A DNA stretch of 64,000 nucleotides from Parvularcula maris (lineage in GTDB: Bacteria; Pseudomonadota; Alphaproteobacteria; Caulobacterales; Parvularculaceae), in the NCBI RefSeq assembly GCF_024505085.1, contig NZ_JANIBC010000005.1, positions 62,001 to 126,000 of the forward strand, read 5' to 3'. The stretch's first letter is position 1. Every line of letters begins with the position of its first letter. The notes beneath the pieces are model-generated. The model did no database searches and was not told where the DNA came from. It saw only the letters and a program-made list of their open reading frames with translations. Of this stretch, positions 36,001 through 62,630 are shown one piece after another. The position numbers and the translations under genes were made by a program.

Positions 36001-38607
36001 TCATCTTTCGGTAAGGAACGGAACCGGTTCGATCCGGTGGCCGGAGAAGTCCCGGAAGAGCCGCTCGTGACAGGAGAGAACGATGATCTGCGTCTCCTGC
36101 GCCACCTCGTGCAGGATATCGAAGAAAACCCCCGCCCGGCGGTCGTCGCTATAGGTAAGCGCGTCGTCGAGGATGACCGGCACCGGCTCGCCGCGCGCCG
36201 CCATCAGCTTGGCGAATGCTAGACGGCTGAGGATGCCGAGCTGCTCGCGGGTCCCGGCGGAGAGCTGCGCCACCCGCATGCTACCCCCTGGTCGCTCAAG
36301 GCTTTCGGGGTTCCATTCGTCATCGAAACGAAGCTGGCTTTCGCCGAACAGGCGCTCGGTCATGGGAAGAAGCTCACGCATGACCGGGCCGGTGACTTGG
36401 CGGCGGCGCTCTTCGGCTTCCTCCCCCAGGAGGCCTAGAAGCAGCTTCAGCCCGCCCCGGCGCCGCTCCAACGCATCGCGTTTCTCCGTCGCCAGCTCCA
36501 GCTCGCCCGCCGCGGTGCCGAGCTGCTCCTCGATCCCCTCCGCTTGGCGCTCGCGCAGCAGGGTTTCGGTCGAGGCGATGTTCTGTAGCAGGCTCTCGCG
36601 GCGCCCCGCCCGCGCGGCAGCGGCTTCGGTCAGCCTTGCGAGCCGGGTCTCCGCCTCGCGCACCCGGCGCAGCGCCTTGTCGATCTCGGTCTTGCGGTAG
36701 AAGCCGCCAGCGATCTTCTCGCCGAGGGCATCGAGCTTCTCCTGCAGCTTCGCTTGCCTCGCCGGGCGATCCTCTTCAGGGCCAAGCCTCGCCTCCAACG
36801 ACCTCAGCGCTTGCATGGCCGTGGTCGCCTCCACTTGGGCGTCGCGCCGCCGCTCCTTCAGCCCGTCCAGCTTCTCCGCCAGGGCTCTGATGCGCCCGGC
36901 AGCGTCGGCGGCCTCGTCCAGGGCGTCAGCGTGGCCCCGCTCCAGCTCTTCCTTCGAGGTGTCGGGCTGAGCCGGAGCTTGAGAAAGAGCGGCCCGGTCA
37001 GCCTCCACCCGTGCTGCGAGAGCCTGAAGCCCTTCGGGTGCCAGGGCTGTGAGGCTGGCTTCCAGTGCCTGACGCTTCTGCTCCGCGGTGCGCTGCTGCT
37101 CCGCCTTCGCCTCAGCCTCTGCCAGGCTCTTGCATTCGGCAGTGTCGAGGAGCGTCGAGAGCGCGTTTCCGGCTTCGGCGTACTCTTGGCGCAGCGCTGC
37201 TTTCTGAGAAACATGAAGACGCATCACCGCGCCGCCCGCCTCGATCCTGCCCTCCCCCGTTACGGTCCGCAGCTCACCCTGGTTCAGCGCCATGCCATCA
37301 AGGTTCACGCCCTCCCCGGAGATCACCTCCAGGCGCGGTGCTTCCGCCTCCAGCTTGGCCTCCACCCGAGCTAACCGCTCGGCAGCCTTGCGGAGGGCGG
37401 GAAGGTCGAAAGCAGCGGCCCGCGGCGGAAGCGCCGATAGGTCCTTCTCCACGAATTGCGCTTTAGCTAGACGCTCGGACCGCTCTGCCGCCCCCCGCCG
37501 GGTCTCCGCTAGACTTACAAAAGTCGCCCACTCCTGCAGCCCCGTATTAGTCTGCTGCACCTTCTTGTCAGCGGTGGTCCGGCGCTCCTCTTGAGCCGCT
37601 AGTTCGGTCTCGGTAGTACCAATATCCTCGGTGAGTTTCTGAACCTGCCCCGCGGCCATACTTTGCGTAGACCGCAGGTTCTTCGCGGCTTTCTGCTCCG
37701 CGTCGAACTGCTCGATCTCCTCCTCCAGCCGCGCTTTTTCCGCTTGGTCGCGACGCAGAAGCTCCTCGGTATGGCCAAGTTCCGCCTTGAGTTTCTGGCC
37801 CTCCTGCGCCTGCTCCTTCGCTTCCGCGAGATCGGCTTCGTCAGCTTTGCGGTCCTCGGGGTCGTCGAGCGAACGGAGGGTCGCACGTAGCTCGGTCAGC
37901 TTGCTCCGAAGCTCCTCACTCTCGCGCAGCCGGGCCGCAAGCTGGTCGCGTTTCGCCGTCAGATCGGCGACCCGCTCGATCGCGGCTTTCAGCTCTTTGC
38001 GGGGCTCTTGTTTCTTGGGTTGCTCAAGCTCGCCGAGCTCCTTGCGGCCGAGCTCCTCCACCCGCGAAGCCGCCCCCGTGCCCGACGCATCCTCGACCTC
38101 GCCGACGAGAAGCTGCGAGACCGTGCGGCTGTCATCCTTGCTTAGAAAATCCGCCTTGCTGCCCAGTGCGCCGTCGAGGGAGCTGCCCTGTTTCAGCCAG
38201 AGAAGACCGGGCGCCCCCTTGCCCGACGCCTCCGCGCCGACAAGCTGCCAGAGCTTCTGCTGCGCCTCGTCCGCGAGCCAGGTCGAGACGCCCGTTTCCA
38301 GCCTGGTTAGGCTGTCTTTCCGGCCCTTCGCGAAACGCTTGGCCAAACGGTAGGCCTCGCCGCCAGTGTCAAAGGCCACCTCGATATAGGGGTCGGCGTC
38401 GCTGCCCTGAGGTCTCAGGGCGTTGGACACCGCGCTGTTGGCGTTGTCCTTGACGAACAGCGCCTGGCTGAGCGCCTCGAAGATCGTGCTTTTGCCGAAC
38501 TCGTTGGGCTCGCACAGAAGGTTCAGGCCAGGGGAGAGGCCCTCAAGCGCGACCCCCTCCTCGCCGAACCTGCCCACATGCTGCAGCTTGATGGAGGAGA
38601 AACGCAT
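36001..38607 (-). CDS. SbcC/YhaN-like AAA ATPase (Rad50 type)
   Basis: 868 residues. The ATPase halves sit at the ends: Walker A EPNEFGKSTIFEAL (~33-46); signature LSAGTREQLGILSR, Walker B PVILDDALTYSD and H-loop IIVLSCHERLF at the C-terminus. Between them are long Glu/Lys/Arg-rich coiled coils. No C-x-x-C zinc hook is visible. Instead a short beta-rich stretch (VNLDGMALNQGELRTVTGEG) interrupts the coil near the middle. It should form a complex with the SbcD-like nuclease encoded just upstream, acting on DNA ends. Its ATG overlaps the nuclease stop codon (TGATG), so the two are translationally coupled. Confidence 0.88.
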   Translation of the reverse strand: MRFSSIKLQHVGRFGEEGVALEGLSPGLNLLCEPNEFGKSTIFEALSQALFVKDNANSAVSNALRPQGSDADPYIEVAFDTGGEAYRLAKRFAKGRKDSLTRLETGVSTWLADEAQQKLWQLVGAEASGKGAPGLLWLKQGSSLDGALGSKADFLSKDDSRTVSQLLVGEVEDASGTGAASRVEELGRKELGELEQPKKQEPRKELKAAIERVADLTAKRDQLAARLRESEELRSKLTELRATLRSLDDPEDRKADEADLAEAKEQAQEGQKLKAELGHTEELLRRDQAEKARLEEEIEQFDAEQKAAKNLRSTQSMAAGQVQKLTEDIGTTETELAAQEERRTTADKKVQQTNTGLQEWATFVSLAETRRGAAERSERLAKAQFVEKDLSALPPRAAAFDLPALRKAAERLARVEAKLEAEAPRLEVISGEGVNLDGMALNQGELRTVTGEGRIEAGGAVMRLHVSQKAALRQEYAEAGNALSTLLDTAECKSLAEAEAKAEQQRTAEQKRQALEASLTALAPEGLQALAARVEADRAALSQAPAQPDTSKEELERGHADALDEAADAAGRIRALAEKLDGLKERRRDAQVEATTAMQALRSLEARLGPEEDRPARQAKLQEKLDALGEKIAGGFYRKTEIDKALRRVREAETRLARLTEAAAARAGRRESLLQNIASTETLLRERQAEGIEEQLGTAAGELELATEKRDALERRRGGLKLLLGLLGEEAEERRRQVTGPVMRELLPMTERLFGESQLRFDDEWNPESLERPGGSMRVAQLSAGTREQLGILSRLAFAKLMAARGEPVPVILDDALTYSDDRRAGVFFDILHEVAQETQIIVLSCHERLFRDFSGHRIEPVPFLTER

Positions 38608-39698
38608 CAGGCCTGCCGCGCCAGCTTGGTCAGCTCCCGCAGGGCGGCCCGCGCTTCGTCGGCATCGGGGCCGTCCTGCATGGCAGCGAGCTTGCGCGCC
38701 ACCCGTCCGAGCACCCCGTCGCCCAAAAGCTCCTCAACATTCTCCGCATCGGCGGTTACCGATAGTTCTTTCGTCCGCAAGTCCAGATGGAAAAGCCGGT
38801 CTTGGGCCTCGTTCAAAGCCTCATCGACTGCCGAGCGGGCCGCGATCTCCGTGCTGCCCGTGAGGGTGAGGCGCATCAGCGTTTCGTCCAGACGTTGGCC
38901 CGAGGGAAAGAGCCGATCCATCAGTTCGTCAGGTTTCTCGCCAGGGGACAGCCTCTCCTGCTGCGCCGACCAGGTGTAGCGGCTGATCCGGTGACTCACC
39001 GGGTTGTCGGCATCGGCGAGGTCCACGATCAGCGCGTTGCCCTGATCGGTGGTGCGGAAGTCGTCGGCCTCCGGCGTACCCGCGTAGAAGGCCCGCGGCC
39101 CCGCCTGCTTGGTCGCGTGCCAGTCGCCGAGCGCCAGATAGGCGAGCCCTGCCTTCTCGGCCCGTTCGGCGTCGATCACCCCGGCATCGTCACCGCTACC
39201 GAAGGCCTGCACCCCGCCATGGGCGATGCCGATGACGGCACCCTCGAAGGCCCGCCCCTCGAAGCCTTCGGTCAGGTCGCGGCCCGCCCGCCTGCCCTTG
39301 AGCGGCGCCGAAAGCAGCGTCACCCCTTGCGCGAGCTCCCGCGGCTGGCCGTCGAGCAGCAGCTCCACATTGGGCGGTAGGCCGATACGCTGCAGCCGCT
39401 GCCAAAGCCCCTCGTCGCGGTAGTGGTCGTGGTTGCCGGGTAGCAGCCACCAGCGCACGCCCTTCTGCTCACCCAGCCGGTCCAGCGTCCTGCGCAGCAG
39501 TGCATCCGAGGGTTCGAGCTGGTCCCAGACATCCCCCGCCACCAACACATCTGCCGCGCCCTCACGCCGCGCGAGGTCCGCCAACTTGGGGATGATCTCC
39601 AGCCTAGCACCTTGTAGCTGCGCGGCCCTTTCGGGTCCGAAACCGGCGAAGGGCTTGCCGAGCTGCCAGTCGGCGGTATGCAGGAAACGGTAGGCCAT
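38607..39698 (-). CDS. SbcD/YhaO-like DNA repair exonuclease (Mre11 type)
   Basis: 363 residues from ATG 39698. The calcineurin-like phosphoesterase motifs are FLHTADWQLGKPF, VAGDVWDQ, LLPGNHDHY, IGIAHGGV and ALGDWHATKQ. In motif I the usual D-x-H reads D-W-Q, a substitution at a metal ligand position. The C-terminal region is a likely capping/ATPase-docking domain. It is the nuclease partner of the following SbcC-like ATPase. Its start overlaps the repA stop by TGATG, tying its translation to that of the replication initiator. Confidence 0.88.
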   Translation of the reverse strand: MAYRFLHTADWQLGKPFAGFGPERAAQLQGARLEIIPKLADLARREGAADVLVAGDVWDQLEPSDALLRRTLDRLGEQKGVRWWLLPGNHDHYRDEGLWQRLQRIGLPPNVELLLDGQPRELAQGVTLLSAPLKGRRAGRDLTEGFEGRAFEGAVIGIAHGGVQAFGSGDDAGVIDAERAEKAGLAYLALGDWHATKQAGPRAFYAGTPEADDFRTTDQGNALIVDLADADNPVSHRISRYTWSAQQERLSPGEKPDELMDRLFPSGQRLDETLMRLTLTGSTEIAARSAVDEALNEAQDRLFHLDLRTKELSVTADAENVEELLGDGVLGRVARKLAAMQDGPDADEARAALRELTKLARQA

Positions 39699-40825
39699 CA
39701 ATTGGGTAGCGGGTGCCTCTTGGCATAGGTGCTGAAGAAGGCAAGGAAGGCCGCGTCAGGCCGCTTGGGCGGCTCCTTGGTCAGCGCCCAGCGCTTCCAC
39801 TCCTCCAGCACGGCATATTTATCGTAGCCGGGGAAAAGGCGGCTCGCCTGCTCGATGGCGTAGGGGCTGACCTCCAGGTCGCTGGCCCGGCAGGGCTCGC
39901 TGGCGATCTGGGGCACGTCGCCTTCGAAGCTTCCCGGTGCCTCGATCTCTACCTGTTGGCGGCGGGGGCGGCCCTTGGGTTTGAACACCACCATGGGGTT
40001 GCGCTTGCCGGGAGTGACGCTGAAGCCGCCGGACTGGATCAGGCGCGCGCCGTCCGAGTGGGGGTCGTCCACCACGAGGAGATCGTATTCAGGGATGGGC
40101 TGGCGGGCCTGCACCTCCTTCAGCGCAGCCTTGAACTTCGCCGTCCGGTCCTCCGAGCCGACTTTGCGCTGCAGCTTCTCGAGGCCGATGTGGAAGAAGC
40201 GCTGCTGGCCGCAATGGACGCGGGCGATCTCGTAGAGGCGGCGCTCGATGGGTGAGAGCTGGAAGTAGCTGACGTCATAGGTGAGGATCTTCTGGTCCTT
40301 GATCAGCGCCCGGTAGAGCCAGTCGCAGAGCCGCACCTTCACCCGGTTCAGGCGCTTCGTGCCGTCGGCGGTCTTCGTGTAGCTCATCTTGGCTTCCGAG
40401 ACCCAGGAGAAGAAGCCGTCCTCGCCCTCGCCGCCGGCCTCGATATTGGTCTTGATCTGCGTGCCCTGCAGCCGCTCCAGCGCGCCGTTGATGCGCTGGT
40501 AGGAGCGGGCCGAACGGTTGCCGCCGATCACACGGAGGAAGTCATGGGCGGTGAAGCTGTACTCCTGGCTCGGCGTCTCCATGCGCTTCATCTGGCTGAC
40601 CAGCAGCGAGGCGATGTAGAGCAGGATCTCCTTGTCGTAGATCGTCGCCACCCCGGTCTGGCTGGGCCGTACCTCGATCGAGACATAGTCGTCCGAATAG
40701 GTGATCGGCTGCATACGCCGCCCCTTGGACAAGGCGAAGAAGGGGAAGGCCATGACTGAGCGCTCCCCCTTCACCTTGCCGTGAAGGGGGCTGTCGAGGT
40801 TGGTAAGGGCCATCTGCTCAGCCAT
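39698..40825 (-). CDS. repA: Plasmid replication initiator RepA (RPA family)
   Basis: 375 residues. It has the RepA/RPA initiator signatures: MAFPFFALSKGRRMQPITY, then IYDKEILLYIASLL, YSFTAHDFLRVIGGNRS and ERRLYEIARVHCGQQ. These tandem winged-helix regions bind iterons and open the origin. It is divergent from parA, with the iteron region between them. The start at ATG 40825 follows a GAGAGAG ribosome site. It heads a coupled repA-sbcD-sbcC unit. A plasmid-type initiator beside core chromosomal genes indicates a chromid or an integrated plasmid. Confidence 0.93.
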   Translation of the reverse strand: MAEQMALTNLDSPLHGKVKGERSVMAFPFFALSKGRRMQPITYSDDYVSIEVRPSQTGVATIYDKEILLYIASLLVSQMKRMETPSQEYSFTAHDFLRVIGGNRSARSYQRINGALERLQGTQIKTNIEAGGEGEDGFFSWVSEAKMSYTKTADGTKRLNRVKVRLCDWLYRALIKDQKILTYDVSYFQLSPIERRLYEIARVHCGQQRFFHIGLEKLQRKVGSEDRTAKFKAALKEVQARQPIPEYDLLVVDDPHSDGARLIQSGGFSVTPGKRNPMVVFKPKGRPRRQQVEIEAPGSFEGDVPQIASEPCRASDLEVSPYAIEQASRLFPGYDKYAVLEEWKRWALTKEPPKRPDAAFLAFFSTYAKRHPLPN

Positions 40826-40896
40826 GGGGTCTCTCTCTCGCCTTCGCCGTGACCGCTTATCGGAACGCGCGCCGCAGAAGAGTCCACGATTCGCTT

Positions 40897-41053
40897 TCGT
40901 GTCTTCGGGGATTCTTCCCCAAAAGCACGAGCATGGGGGGTGAGGAGCCTCTGGAATTCCGGGTTAGGCTAGGGAATCCTACGCTTTGAAAGACGGGTGG
41001 TGAAGAGTCGTGCTTTCGAGGACAAACGGCCTGTTTCGTCCCTGAAGGCACGA
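40897..41053. repeat. Left iteron cluster (four copies)
   Basis: TCGTGTCTTCGGGG (40897-40910), CCCCAAAAGCACGA (40917-40930, inverted), TCGTGCTTTCGAGG (41008-41021), CCCTGAAGGCACGA (41040-41053, inverted). The first two are inverted with centres 20 bases apart. Confidence 0.78.
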
Positions 41054-41226
41054 AGCTAAGCTTGATGACGGCGGAATCACTCGGATCGATTCTCAGCCGC
41101 GCTGCAGATTTCGAATCAACTCTCCAAAAACTCCAGCAAATCTCAGATTAGATTCCAATTAGGAAGGTTACTAGGTTAGCAGTAGGTGAGTGCATTGGAT
41201 TCCCTAGGAGATTTCACGGACCTTTG

Positions 41227-41339
41227 CCCCGAAAACACGAAACCGGGTCCTCGAAAGAACGATTGGGGCGTCCGTGAAGACACGACCCTGAGGCCGCGAT
41301 TGCACGAGGGGTGATCTGAGGACATCCCCCAAAGCACGA
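41227..41339. repeat. Right iteron cluster (three copies, same orientation)
   Basis: CCCCGAAAACACGA (41227-41240), CCGTGAAGACACGA (41272-41285), CCCCCAAAGCACGA (41326-41339), all read as the minus-strand iteron. Confidence 0.75.
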
Positions 41340-41425
41340 GGAGACTCCGCGCCGCGAATCGCGCTTCTTGCATGCGCTGCGGTTTTCGTTCTTTAGTCGG
41401 CGAAACTGCGGCGGGAGGAGTATTC

Positions 41426-42613
41426 TTGGTCGAGCAAGCGAAATCAGCGGCAACGCTGGAAACCATCAGCGGCCTCGTGGAGACGGCTGACGGCATTATC
41501 GCCACCATGCGGGACATGGCGGAGGACCGGGTGGCCGATACCGGGCCGCGGCGCTATCGGCTGACCGAGGCGGCCCAGCTCGCGGGCCGCTCGGTGGATG
41601 CGGTGCGCCGCGCCGAGGCCGCGGGAGATCTGCCCCAGCCCACCCTGCGCAGCTCAGGCCAGCGCGCCGGCTACACCCTGCGCGAGGTGAACCTCATGCG
41701 CGATCATTTCGGCACCAGGCCCTACCGCGCCCCCGAAGACCCGCCCCTCATTCTCGCCGTGCAGAACTTCAAGGGCGGCGTCGGCAAGAGCACCATTGCC
41801 GCCCACGCGGCCCAGTACTTCGCCGAGCGCGGCTACCGCGTGCTCATCATCGACACGGACAGCCAGGCTTCAACTACGACGTTGTTCGGCTTCAACCCCG
41901 ATGTCGACATCGAGACCGATACGACGCTCCTGCCCTATCTCATCGCCGACCGCTCGGACGGGATCGGCTATGCGGTGAGGCCGACGAGCTGGGACGGGCT
42001 CGACCTCGTGCCCGCCAATCTTGGTCTCTACTCGGCGGAGTATATTCTCAGCCAGCAGGTAAAAGGCGACGTCTCGCGGTTGTCGCGGCTGAAGGCCGGT
42101 CTCGACGAGGCAGCGGCGAGCTACGACATCCTCATCATCGACCCGCCGCCTGCCCTCGGCATGATCTCGCTATCGGTGCTTCAGGCGGCCAACGCCATCC
42201 TGATCCCCACCCCGCCAAGCTCTATCGACTTCGCTTCCACCGCCGCTTACCTCGCCATGCTGGAAGAGGTGGTCGAGGCGCTGAACAAGCAGACCGAGAG
42301 CCCTGTGGAGTTCAGCTTCGTATCTCTGCTCGCCACGAAGGTGGTAGAGCAGAAGGGAGCCCACGAGACCATGCGCGAGGTCATGGGCCGAGCCTTCTCC
42401 GGCTCCATCCTTCCCACTGCGCTCCTCGATTCGGCCGAGTTCGATACGGCATCGGTCGAGATGCGCACCGTGTTCGAGGCTACTGGCGGTCAGTCGCGGA
42501 CGGCTCGCCGCTGCCGCAACAATCTTCTCGCTGTCATGGGTGATCTGGAGATGAAAGTGCGCCAGACCTGGCCAAGCCACCGCGGCAAGCTACGCGCCGA
42601 GGGAATCGCGTAG
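41426..42613 (+). CDS. parA: Plasmid partition ATPase ParA
   Basis: 395 residues. A TTG at 41426 is chosen because a very strong GGGAGGAG ribosome site lies five bases upstream; the ATG at 41372 has none. An N-terminal ~100-residue region contains a helix-turn-helix (RYRLTEAAQLAGRSVDAVRR), as in autoregulatory type Ia ParA. Then come the deviant Walker A FKGGVGKST, VLIIDTDSQASTT (A') and YDILIIDPPPALG (Walker B). It segregates the replicon with ParB bound at parS and probably represses its own operon. parB follows 59 bases downstream. Confidence 0.95.
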   Translation: MVEQAKSAATLETISGLVETADGIIATMRDMAEDRVADTGPRRYRLTEAAQLAGRSVDAVRRAEAAGDLPQPTLRSSGQRAGYTLREVNLMRDHFGTRPYRAPEDPPLILAVQNFKGGVGKSTIAAHAAQYFAERGYRVLIIDTDSQASTTTLFGFNPDVDIETDTTLLPYLIADRSDGIGYAVRPTSWDGLDLVPANLGLYSAEYILSQQVKGDVSRLSRLKAGLDEAAASYDILIIDPPPALGMISLSVLQAANAILIPTPPSSIDFASTAAYLAMLEEVVEALNKQTESPVEFSFVSLLATKVVEQKGAHETMREVMGRAFSGSILPTALLDSAEFDTASVEMRTVFEATGGQSRTARRCRNNLLAVMGDLEMKVRQTWPSHRGKLRAEGIA

Positions 42614-42653
42614 TGTGCACATGTGCACAGCCCGTTATCGTGCACATGTGCAC
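42614..42653. promoter_or_regulatory. parS: Two tandem palindromes between parA and parB (candidate parS)
   Basis: GTGCACATGTGCAC occurs twice as a perfect palindrome, at 42615-42628 (extended to TGTGCACATGTGCACA, 42614-42629) and 42640-42653, with centres 25 bases apart. Duplicated palindromes in a parA-parB gap are typical of a ParB centromere or an autoregulatory operator. Confidence 0.7.
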
Positions 42654-42672
42654 ACCCGTTTGAGGACTAACC

Positions 42673-43632
42673 ATGGCTAGAAAACGTGCCCGCATCTTGG
42701 CTGACGCTATCAGCTCGCGCTTGGAGGAGAAGAACGACGGTGATCAAGAACGCCGCGCCTACACTCCCGAACGGGAAAGCCTGATCGCCGAAGCTTCCGA
42801 TGGACGTCTCAAGAACGGCAAGATCAGGCTGGTGGACCCCTCTACTTGCCGCATGTGGGATGGCCACAACCGTCTCTACGACCTGATGACGCCCGACAGC
42901 GTCGGCGACCTTATAAAGTCGATCAAAGCATCAGGACGCCAGGAAATGCCCGCCATTGTGCGCCCTCTGACTGGTGAGAAGCACCAGTACGAGGTCATCT
43001 GCGGCGCCAGGCGACATTTCGCCGTCAGCCATCTACGCGAGAAAGAGCACCGCCAGGACATCCTCTATTTGGTCGATATTCGCGAGATCTCCGACGAGGA
43101 GGCGTTCCGCCTCTCCGACCTTGAGAACCGTGAGCGGGAGGATATCTCTGATTTCGAGCGCAGCCGGGACTACGGGCGGGCGCTGGAAGCCTATTACGAG
43201 GGCAACCGCTCCCTCATGGCCGAGCGGATCGGCGTGGACCGCACCTGGCTTAGCCGGTACCTGCGCATCGGCGAGCTGCCCCAGGAGGTGATTCGTGCCT
43301 ATGGGGACGTCCGCGAGATCGGCATCCGCCACGCTGCTGAACTGTCTTCGATCCTAGGCTCGGACAGCGAACCAGCGCTGCTGATGGAGGCGAAAAAGAT
43401 CGCTGCCGAGCTGGGAGGGGGCGAGAAGCTTACCGCGTCGCAGACGCTCAAACGCTTAAAACATGCGGCCATACCGCAGCCATCCCGCGAGATTGAGTCG
43501 GTGTTCGACCCGGAGGGCCGGGTTCTGGCCACCATTGAGCGCCGCAGCCGCAGCCACGTGCTGACCATTCCCAAGGCGAGGCTCGCGAACAAAGACGACG
43601 TGCTGAAGGCGATCGAAAAACTGCTCAGCTAG
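42673..43632 (+). CDS. parB: Centromere-binding protein ParB
   Basis: 319 residues. The ParB/Spo0J N-terminal domain includes GDLIKSIKASGRQEMPAI and the arginine-patch motif CGARRHFAVSHL, which binds CTP in the family. The helix-turn-helix follows (NRSLMAERIGVDRTWLSRYL). The C-terminal part ends in a short dimerisation-like helix. With ParA and the palindromes just upstream it completes a ParABS system. Its end overlaps the converging helix-turn-helix gene by eight bases. Confidence 0.94.
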   Translation: MARKRARILADAISSRLEEKNDGDQERRAYTPERESLIAEASDGRLKNGKIRLVDPSTCRMWDGHNRLYDLMTPDSVGDLIKSIKASGRQEMPAIVRPLTGEKHQYEVICGARRHFAVSHLREKEHRQDILYLVDIREISDEEAFRLSDLENREREDISDFERSRDYGRALEAYYEGNRSLMAERIGVDRTWLSRYLRIGELPQEVIRAYGDVREIGIRHAAELSSILGSDSEPALLMEAKKIAAELGGGEKLTASQTLKRLKHAAIPQPSREIESVFDPEGRVLATIERRSRSHVLTIPKARLANKDDVLKAIEKLLS

Positions 43633-60185: not shown

Positions 60186-62630
60186 ATGCGCGTTTTTGTC
60201 CTAGCCGTTCTCGCCCTTCTCAGCCTTGCCCATGCCCAGCCGCCCTCGGCGGAGATCGGGCTTTTGCGCGAGGAGGTAGCCGTCCGTACCCAGCGCCTGG
60301 CCGAGATCGAAGAGGAGCTGACTTCGGAGGTCTTGGGCACTGACGAACTCCTGACCTTGAGGGAGGAGCTGCGCACCCTCCGCACCGATGCCCAGACGGC
60401 CCTGGTGCCGCTGGAGCAGCGCATCGAGACCTTGCGTTCGGACCTCGACCGCCTCGGCCCCATCCCGGCCGAGGGCGAGCCGCCGGAGAGCGACGCGCTC
60501 AAGGAGGAGCGGGTCGAGATCAGCAAGCGGCTCGGCGATCTCGCAGCGCTCAGCGCCAAGATCGACCTGAACATCGCGGCCAGCACGAGGATCGGCGAGG
60601 CCATCGCGGCCAGGCGGCGCGACGCCTTCACCGGACGCCTGCAGCAGCGCGGCGACCTGCTGATCTCACCGCAGCTCTGGACGGGGGCGGCAGCGGAGTT
60701 CCTCGGCGGCGCGGAGGACGCGATCATGGCCGCGAACGGCTGGCGCGACGAGATGCGGGAGAAGGGAAGCCTGGCCCGCTCTCTCCTCTATCTCGGCCTG
60801 GCTGTCGTGATCGCGCTCCTGCTCCTCATCCCCCTGCGCCGCTTCACCGAGAGGCAGATCTTCCGCCGCATCGAGCCGCTTGAGCCCTACCCCTCGCGGC
60901 GCGTGCTGGTCGCGGCCCTTCGCACGGCCTCGAAGATGGTGCCCGGCATCGTGGCCGGGTTCTTCCTGATCGAGACGCTGAAGTTCATCGGCGCCGTGCC
61001 CGACGAGGCGGAGGACTTCGCCGAAGCGCTCTGGCTAGGCTTCCTCGCTTTGGTCTTTGCCGATGCCGCCGTCTCCGCGGTCTTCGCGCCCTTGCGGCCC
61101 GAATGGCGGGTCGCACCCCTGCCGCGCCGCAGCCTCCTCGCCGTCAGGCTTCTCGCCATCTCCGCGGCGGCGATCCTGGTGGCCAACATGGTGCTGGCGC
61201 GGGGCGCGGACCTCTTCGTCGGCTCGCCGCTTCTTTCCTACGCCCAGCAGGGGGTGGTGGCGGTGTCGCTGGGCGCGCTTCTCTACCTTCTCTCCCGCGA
61301 CGGGCTCTGGACCCGGAAGGACGACGAGGAGGAGCCCGCCCCCACCAAGCTCGTCGAGGGCGAGGCGCCGCCGGGCGCCCCCGAAACCCCCGCCGTGGCG
61401 GTCGAGCCGGACGAGCCTAAGAAGCGCAGCTTCTTCGGCAAGCTGCGGACCCTGGGGCGGGTCCTCGGCGGTCTCTCCGCCGGAGCGGCGCTCCTCGGCT
61501 GGGTCAATCTCGGCTACTACGTCTCTACGAGGGCGTTCCTCCTGGTGGCGCTCTTCGGCGTCGTCATGGCGATCAGGGCCATGCTGCGGGAGACCGTGCG
61601 GGTCTTAGACAAGGACTTCTCCAGCACCGCCGACGAGGAGGACGAGAAGCTCCTCTACTCCTGGATCGGCATCTTCATCGACGCGGTGGCGGTGCTTATC
61701 TTCATCCCGCCCGCGCTCCTCATCCTGGGTGCCGAGTGGTCCGACGTGCGCGGATGGATCGTCGACGCGCTGATCGGCTTCGAGGTCGGCAATGTCAGGA
61801 TCAGCTTCGGCAAGATCCTCTCGGCCATCGGCATCTTCGTGGTCCTTCTATGGGTCACCCGCCAGGTGCAGAAGACCGCCGAGACGCAGATCTTCCCCCG
61901 CTCCCGCATCGACCCAGGGGTGCAGAACTCGCTTCGCACGCTGATCGGCTATGTGGGCCTCGTCATCGCCTTCATGATCGGCGTGGGGACCTTGGGCTTC
62001 GACCTTCAGAACCTCGCCATCATCGCCGGCGCCCTCTCGGTCGGTATCGGTTTCGGCCTCCAGTCCATCGTCAACAACTTCGTCAGTGGACTGATTCTTC
62101 TCTTCGAGCGTCCCATCAAGGTGGGCGACTGGATCGTCACGGCCTCGGGCGAGGGCATCGTCAAGCGCATCTCGGTCCGCTCGACGGAGATCGAGACCTT
62201 CGACAGGTCCTCCGTCATCGTCCCCAACTCCGAGCTGATCGCCCAGGCGGTCACCAACTGGACGCATAAGGACAAGATGGGCCGGGTGATCGTCCGTGTG
62301 GGCGCCGCCTATGACAGCGACGCGGAAAAGGTCATGCGCATCCTGCAGCAGGTGGCGAGGGAGAACCGCGACATCCTCAACTATCCCGCACCGGCGGTTG
62401 TGTTCGAGGATTTCGGCGCGTCGAGCCTCGATTTTTCCCTACGCTGCTATATCCGCGACGTGGGGAACAGCCTCCGCGTCAGGACGGAGCTGAGGGTCGC
62501 CATCCACAAAGCCTTCCGCGAGCAGGGCATCGAGATCCCCTTCCCCCAGCAGGACGTCTATGTGCGGGAGCTGGCGTCCCAGTCCGGCGTCAAGGAGGGG
62601 GTGGAGGAGCCCTCAGAAGCTCCTGCCTAG
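60186..62630 (+). CDS. Large MscS-family mechanosensitive channel with periplasmic domain
   Basis: 814 residues. A signal peptide (MRVFVLAVLALLSLAHAQP) leads a periplasmic coiled-coil/DUF3772-like region (~20-195), then many membrane helices. The MscS core lies near 610-700: GALSVGIGFGLQSIVNNFVS, LLFERPIKVGDWIV and FDRSSVIVPNSELIAQAVTN are the pore-helix, beta-domain and Y-N-S type signatures. A cytoplasmic vestibule follows. It should open under membrane tension to release solutes. A long insertion of charged, Pro-rich sequence sits mid-membrane (~380-420). Its 3' end overlaps the converging gene by 18 bases. Confidence 0.92.
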   Translation: MRVFVLAVLALLSLAHAQPPSAEIGLLREEVAVRTQRLAEIEEELTSEVLGTDELLTLREELRTLRTDAQTALVPLEQRIETLRSDLDRLGPIPAEGEPPESDALKEERVEISKRLGDLAALSAKIDLNIAASTRIGEAIAARRRDAFTGRLQQRGDLLISPQLWTGAAAEFLGGAEDAIMAANGWRDEMREKGSLARSLLYLGLAVVIALLLLIPLRRFTERQIFRRIEPLEPYPSRRVLVAALRTASKMVPGIVAGFFLIETLKFIGAVPDEAEDFAEALWLGFLALVFADAAVSAVFAPLRPEWRVAPLPRRSLLAVRLLAISAAAILVANMVLARGADLFVGSPLLSYAQQGVVAVSLGALLYLLSRDGLWTRKDDEEEPAPTKLVEGEAPPGAPETPAVAVEPDEPKKRSFFGKLRTLGRVLGGLSAGAALLGWVNLGYYVSTRAFLLVALFGVVMAIRAMLRETVRVLDKDFSSTADEEDEKLLYSWIGIFIDAVAVLIFIPPALLILGAEWSDVRGWIVDALIGFEVGNVRISFGKILSAIGIFVVLLWVTRQVQKTAETQIFPRSRIDPGVQNSLRTLIGYVGLVIAFMIGVGTLGFDLQNLAIIAGALSVGIGFGLQSIVNNFVSGLILLFERPIKVGDWIVTASGEGIVKRISVRSTEIETFDRSSVIVPNSELIAQAVTNWTHKDKMGRVIVRVGAAYDSDAEKVMRILQQVARENRDILNYPAPAVVFEDFGASSLDFSLRCYIRDVGNSLRVRTELRVAIHKAFREQGIEIPFPQQDVYVRELASQSGVKEGVEEPSEAPA

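Follow-up and report, generated by a model that had tools for sequence, protein, structure and literature searches.

A RepA- and iteron-type replication module that probably serves a second chromosome in Parvularcula

A 64-kb stretch of the Parvularcula maris genome, called the window here (positions 62001 to 126000 of contig C5; the assembly comprises 3.19 Mb in 48 contigs), contains a replication and partition module composed of repA, an intergenic gap, parA, and parB. We consider it likely, with a probability of roughly 0.7, that a Parvularcula second chromosome (chromid) driven by RepA and iterons uses this module as its replication origin and centromere. For Parvularcula mediterranea, this reading is supported by three observations: its two large contigs each close on themselves, the strand skew of one of them is minimal at the module, and the palindromes of the module occur only there. 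A search of a limited literature collection found no report of a second chromosome in Parvularcula. The features of the module are listed in Table 1.

Two self-closing contigs in P. mediterranea

The P. mediterranea assembly consists of three contigs, C1 (1,726,715 bp), C2 (1,367,241 bp), and a third of 120,770 bp. C2 was sampled in 60 segments covering 1.195 of 1.37 Mb (88%), and C1 over 0.40 of 1.73 Mb (∼23%). The ends of C1 appear to be the two halves of one gene with 144-bp repeats, on the same strand and with an exact overlap of 232 bp, and those of C2 appear to be halves of a different, giant repeat gene, with an exact overlap of 5,756 bp. The ends of C1 and C2 share zero 31-mers, and in the sampled pieces the end repeats were confined to the end segments. 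Had a single circle been cut at two repeats, each contig would have one end of either kind. Instead, both ends of each contig are of its own kind, which supports two separate circles. No end overlap was seen in the third contig. The repeat gene at the ends of C1 encodes a TPR-like protein with near-identical 144-bp repeats; the giant gene at the ends of C2 has open frames of >2,400 and >2,800 residues and repeats of ∼3.5 kb.

Chromids are recognized by plasmid-type replication and partition genes, a base composition close to that of the chromosome, and core genes. The module supplies the first, the composition of C2 is 62.3% over 1.195 Mb versus 62.8% over 0.4 Mb of C1, and the core genes are carB, rpsD, serC, and serA in the window and dnaA and, among the 60 segments, 16 tRNA genes on P. 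mediterranea C2, which also carries repA. Full-length tRNA-Cys is found only on C2 in this species. One report states that dnaA can occasionally reside on extrachromosomal replicons (PMC13342612). rRNA was detected neither by Rfam in 14 contig-end and other pieces nor by two 16S primer patterns in the sampled pieces; a genome search for 16S rRNA returned none in nine genomes, but it also missed controls including Caulobacter.

Strand skew on P. mediterranea C2

Because raw GC skew proved noisy in samples of 20 kb, skew was measured at fourfold sites and averaged across the two gene strands. The cumulative skew of C2 has its minimum at 975 to 995 kb, and repA lies at 998,634 to 999,767. In an origin scan of 137 positions at 10-kb steps, the best position was 1,000,000, and none of those scanned surpassed the gap beside repA. 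The skew value at this origin was reached in 0.2% of 1,000 segment shuffles (P = 0.002). The cumulative maximum falls between 300 and 460 kb, and the antipode of the origin is at ∼319 kb. As a control we used the relative G005, a single-contig genome without the module, of which 15% was sampled, closely only in the first 1.05 Mb. In the sampled part, the only clear flip is at 800 to 830 kb, close to parS (818 kb); skew does not flip at serA (286 kb), which lies within an even stretch. Separately, one 20-kb stretch of P. mediterranea C2 at 210 to 230 kb, ∼100 kb from the predicted terminus, has a strand skew of 0.40, unlike its left neighbor, perhaps reflecting a recent import or inversion.

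Candidate partition sites

The GTGCACATGTGCAC palindromes of the window are predicted to be the parS sites of the module's ParB. The same palindrome stands between parA and parB in Parvularcula lutaonensis (three copies) and P. mediterranea (two copies), and in both species it occurs only at the module. Canonical parS sites (≤1 mismatch) were found only on C1 in these two species, and in P. mediterranea they lie beside canonical parAB genes.

The module and its origin region

By its Pfam profiles, RepA belongs to the RPA family and has a winged-helix, Rep_3-like N domain, the kind of initiator that characterizes RPA/Rep_3-type iteron replicons. ParA matches TIGR03453 (1e-63) and the SopA model (4e-62), in both cases below the cut-off. 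All three genes are intact open frames, with repA divergent from parAB. A reading made from the sequence only had described a complete iteron-type plasmid replicon (RepA of the RPA family, an intergenic iteron region, ParA, and ParB) amid core chromosomal genes. The Pfam and NCBIfam profiles and the open frames bear out the replicon, and NCBIfam profiles confirm the adjoining core genes carB, rpsD, serC, and serA.

At ≤3 mismatches, CCCNAAANCACGA has 10 sites in the gap versus 1.8 expected, and the maximum among 200 simulated dinucleotide-matched sequences was 6, so the repeats are beyond chance. A 15-mer pattern gives 14 matches, from which nine sites were chosen: two inverted pairs (four sites) near repA and five direct repeats near parA; four of the five dropped matches overlap chosen sites or their other strand, and the fifth, at 41206 (−), stands alone. 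The sequence-only reading had described a 600-bp gap with seven 14-mer iterons around an AT-rich core. Its repeats and core stand, but the gap is 546 bp long and nine sites are read. The direct 15-mers follow one another in steps of 22 to 23 bp, with a final step of 32 bp, and are the putative replicative iterons. The inverted pair adjoining repA is a candidate RepA autorepression site, and the AT-rich core is a candidate unwinding element. NNTTA-like repeats are also present in the core of the other five species that carry the module (P. lutaonensis, P. mediterranea, Parvularcula oceani, Parvularcula dongshanensis, and a metagenome-assembled genome [MAG]). Phased direct iterons beside an AT-rich core, as expected of an RPA/Rep_3-type replicon, are thus present, and the layout recurs with variations in all six species.

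Table 1. Features of the module and its surroundings, in window coordinates
Feature	Position	Strand	Evidence or remark
RepA replication initiator, 375 aa	39698..40825	−	Pfam PF10134 (RPA), E 2.6e-64; PF01051 (Rep3_N), 1.5e-8
Predicted origin of replication, repA-parA intergenic region, 546 bp	40826..41371		Layout alike in six species; skew flip at orthologous place in P. mediterranea C2
GANTC sites (CcrM methylation motif), 12	40880..41360		47 in whole 64-kb window
Inverted pair of RepA-type repeats adjoining repA	40897..40930 (40897-40911 −, 40916-40930 +)		15-mer pattern; similar pair in six of six species
Second inverted repeat pair	41008..41053 (41008-41022 −, 41039-41053 +)		15-mer pattern
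AT-rich core with NNTTA repeats at 41146, 41157, 41166, 41174, 8-11 bp apart	41106..41178		35% GC over 41106-41165 (60 bp)
Five direct 15-mers like TCCGTGNNNNCACGA at 41226, 41248, 41271, 41293, 41325	41226..41339	+	0-3 mismatches
ParA partition ATPase, SopA/RepA-partition type, 413 aa	41372..42613	+	PF13614, 2.3e-30
Two palindromes GTGCACATGTGCAC	42615..42653 (42615-42628, 42640-42653)		Sole exact occurrences in P. maris genome; between parA and parB
ParB centromere-binding protein, 319 aa	42673..43632	+	SopB-type HTH PF18090, 1.5e-10; ParB domain TIGR00180, 1.2e-25
SbcCD-like ATPase/nuclease pair	36001..39701	−	Downstream of repA; conserved neighbor

The gap is rich in GANTC. The other five species have 10, 12, 7, 15, and 16 sites versus about 0.6 to 1.1 expected from the same-genome background, in which the gap itself is included; across all six species, counts of 7 to 16 compare with 0.4 to 1.1. 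In P. mediterranea the gap ranks as the GANTC-richest of 31,020 windows compared, the next unrelated one having 6. When each species was represented by 1,000 dinucleotide-matched simulations (maxima of 10 to 14), the observed count exceeded every simulation in P. mediterranea, P. oceani, and P. dongshanensis. Milder enrichment also occurs outside the module: the regions upstream of six other RPA initiators have 8, 0, 4, 6, 3, and 2 sites per 600 bp, and in a probable Parvularcula plasmid two gaps adjoining parA contain 4 sites in 399 bp and 3 in 219 bp. A CcrM-like methylase is encoded in G005 (NCBIfam, 3.2e-181; 602 bits, below the model cut-off of 830). CcrM was present in all 13 species that one study examined, and its text includes Parvularculales among the groups discussed (PMC7987155).

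Distribution and gene order in relatives

RepA matches were found in 10 of 61 genomes: 7 of the 10 genomes in the genus (that of the window included) and 3 of the 24 in the order outside the family; the 27 from the family's other genera had none. The closest named relatives are from Parvularcula, and orthologues at 74 to 87% identity are present in five genus genomes besides that of the window. Genome G007 (700 contigs, 6% contaminated) has only distant matches, at 35 to 42%, and the RepA search gave no match in genus genomes G003, G005, and G006. In an unrooted tree of SerA, DnaA, and ParA, these last three form one group with 100% support, apart from all six bearers of the module; a single gain or a single loss of the module therefore suffices. 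The RepA tree, with 29 to 40% support on key nodes, is too weak to separate vertical from horizontal descent.

Aligning the region in related genomes, a check suggested earlier, revealed one gene order shared with P. lutaonensis, P. mediterranea, and the MAG (in which a contig end cuts serA): rpsD, an amidase gene, three genes, the SbcCD-like pair, repA, the gap, parA, parB, an unnamed gene, serC, and serA. Extra genes spread repA and parA in P. oceani and P. dongshanensis, where the neighbors differ and serA is ∼30 and ∼55 kb away. Identities between P. maris and P. lutaonensis are 86% for RepA, 87% for ParA, 94% for rpsD, 81% for serA, and 41 to 50% for the SbcCD-like pair; within this syntenic block, conservation is comparatively high for RepA and ParA. 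The SbcCD-like pair keeps its place by repA in four genomes yet is 35 to 50% identical, far below repA and parA.

P. mediterranea and P. lutaonensis agree in how genes are divided between C1 and C2. Score and frame length allowed 12 GTPase genes to be paired between the two species, and every pair has the same location in both (8 on C1, 4 on C2); one more gene of P. lutaonensis was left unpaired. The placement of dnaA, repA, serA, the amidase gene, tRNA-Cys, and parS also agrees. In P. maris, five of the seven C2-type markers are on contigs where no C1-type marker was seen: repA, a 339-aa GTPase gene, and der-like, hflX-like, and lepA-like genes (the last below its family cut-off), names that we assume from length and score. 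The P. lutaonensis contigs were also considered as two self-closing circles, which was rejected because their ends are opposite ends of one IS3-like element, the right ends on C1 and the left ends on C2. P. lutaonensis C2 also has a partial second tRNA-Cys (818427 to 818474, 48 of 74 bases) 7.7 kb from the full copy, as would be left after integration of an element at a tRNA end.

Alternatives to a second chromosome

Several observations weigh against the second-chromosome reading. In P. maris, three C1-type genes lie on the contig that carries dnaA, and parS lies on the contig of tRNA-Cys, which means either that genes moved between replicons or that there is one fused chromosome; in P. dongshanensis, dnaA and parS are on one contig. 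A two-chromosome topology for P. maris, whose 48 contigs are not closed, is suggested by the gene order shared with P. mediterranea. C1 and C2 of P. lutaonensis may be joined through the IS3-like element. Local left-right skew across the module is not significant on the contig of the window (P = 0.10), nor is it in P. oceani (0.16), P. lutaonensis (21 kb, 0.44), or P. dongshanensis (0.55). The best origin on P. mediterranea C1, at 780 to 840 kb, is 140 to 200 kb off parS (977 to 979 kb) at 23% sampling.

The signals within the module include exceptions as well. DnaA boxes are common in RPA/Rep_3-type origins, though not strictly defining, and a box within one mismatch of TTATCCACA is absent from five of the six origins, that of the window included, and present only in P. 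oceani. No exact GTGCACATGTGCAC was found in the other five genomes searched, among them module-bearing P. oceani and P. dongshanensis; either these diverged modules have a different site, or the palindrome does not act as parS. A dif pattern of other Proteobacteria had no match in six of eight genomes and one two-mismatch match in each of the other two, and no dif was identified. Simulations matched or exceeded the GANTC count in three of the six species (12 versus a simulated maximum of 13 in the window, 10 versus 10 in P. lutaonensis, and 7 versus 10 in the MAG), so the GANTC excess is partly local composition.

Those observations that concern P. maris would also fit a plasmid replicon integrated in a single main chromosome, where it would act as an extra origin or be silenced; single-chromosome Vibrio cholerae strains with two origins are described in one paper (PMC6284228). 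The company of dnaA and tRNA-Cys, the absence of significant local skew, and the possible joining of the P. lutaonensis contigs speak for such an integration. Against it, the P. mediterranea contigs close separately, the skew of C2 as a whole replicon is centered on repA, and five C2-type markers of P. maris are found apart from C1-type ones; on balance we judge integration unlikely. The sequence-only reading had left open a chromid or an integrated plasmid: the chromid is supported in P. mediterranea, where integration is very unlikely, though not to that degree in P. maris. The lack of significant local skew in P. maris would also suit a decaying, functionless remnant of an old plasmid integration. 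This is highly improbable given the intact frames, RepA at 74 to 87% identity across six genus genomes, iterons and GANTC sites kept in six species, and palindromes in three. Still harder to credit is a misassembly that fused a separate plasmid to chromosomal sequence, which had been named as a refutation. Nothing was found in its favor: the same flanking genes in the same order are found in three other assemblies, and linkage to serA is retained at ∼30 and ∼55 kb in two more.

Proposed mechanism and comparison with known replicons

If the module is the origin of a second chromosome, RepA would bind the five phased iterons, open the AT-rich core, and start bidirectional replication, and RepA on the inverted pairs before repA would repress its own synthesis. 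ParB would bind the GTGCACATGTGCAC palindromes, with ParA segregating the copies. CcrM methylation of the dense GANTC cluster could limit the origin to one firing per cell cycle, in the manner of Dam at V. cholerae ori2.

Chromosome 2 of V. cholerae (ori2/RctB, ParAB2), as outlined in a 2018 review (PMC6090056), likewise combines core genes, an iteron-type origin beside the initiator gene, and its own parAB. Its origin is also rich in the motif of the host adenine methylase, GATC there and GANTC here, and a dependence on methylation may exist here too. It differs in its initiator, RctB rather than an RPA/Rep_3-like protein, and the present system is from Alphaproteobacteria, with dnaA on the second chromosome in P. 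mediterranea. The repABC chromids of Alphaproteobacteria are similar in being large secondary replicons with a related ParA (TIGR03453, below the cut-off) and GANTC-rich origins, the latter already reported for repABC replicons (PMC6090056). Unlike them, the module has no repA-repB-repC operon with a RepC initiator; its initiator is of the RPA type, and its repA is divergent from parAB. RPA-type plasmids of other Alphaproteobacteria share the initiator family: 1,159 plasmid records match RepA, 1 at 60 to 80% identity and the rest lower, and most of the Sphingomonas and Sphingobium plasmid matches listed are 52 to 58% identical over about two thirds of RepA; one matching record is a 1.18-Mb replicon of Indioceanicola profundi, at 55%. 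The plasmid records are annotated as plasmids, and the comparison covered RepA. Among genomes, a Geminicoccaceae MAG matches at 67% and Arboricoccus at 61%.

In its account of the class, the same review describes alphaproteobacterial chromids as repABC replicons and iteron origins only on small plasmids (PMC6090056). Parvularcula would thus provide an iteron-type second chromosome in Alphaproteobacteria. With a second chromosome that carries dnaA and whose origin is dense in CcrM sites, it would also lend itself to testing how two replicons stay coordinated.

How the second chromosome may have arisen

The usual explanation of a secondary chromosome is a plasmid that acquired genes, and the review, where it treats splitting, reports no evidence in bacteria for chromids formed in that way (PMC6090056). 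Because the same genus has single-contig relatives without the module, splitting and plasmid growth can be tested against each other in Parvularcula. Reciprocal best pairs with the sampled part of G005 numbered 92, 63 on P. mediterranea C2 and 29 on C1; per sampled gene, pairs are fewer on C2 (63 of 1,009) than on C1 (29 of 354). The pairs form blocks along G005 (C2/C1): 46/3 at 0 to 400 kb, 0/15 at 400 to 550 kb, 12/0 at 583 to 597 kb, and 5/11 at 650 to 1,050 kb, around the skew flip. There are 14 runs of C1 or C2 pairs, versus a shuffled mean of 41. A split of the ancestral chromosome followed by rearrangement is plausible from this arrangement, and large transfers onto a plasmid may alternatively be the source of C2.

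A fuller scenario can be put forward tentatively. An iteron/RepA plasmid would have entered the single ancestral Parvularcula chromosome near serCA, and the chromosome would then have split into one chromosome with parS and one with RepA, dnaA residing on the RepA chromosome in at least P. mediterranea; CcrM methylation of the GANTC-packed origin would license firing of the RepA chromosome, as the counterpart of Dam at Vibrio ori2. The review describes a spontaneous chromosome split in Haloferax volcanii (PMC6090056) in which one chromosome became two replicons, as may have happened here. That organism is an archaeon, and its split occurred by recombination after deletion of an orc gene.

Additional observations

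The contigs C1 and C2 of G006 end within what seem to be two inverted copies of electron-transfer genes, presumably etfBA; with such ends, C1 and C2 would be parts of one circle. A second SopAB-type parAB is present, with shared neighbors, on contigs of 78 to 121 kb in three species (P. maris C10, P. mediterranea C3, and P. lutaonensis C3), which are probably a conserved plasmid. On P. maris C10, a 397-aa protein without a Pfam match at 1e-5 is encoded divergently from this second parA and could be the initiator of that plasmid.

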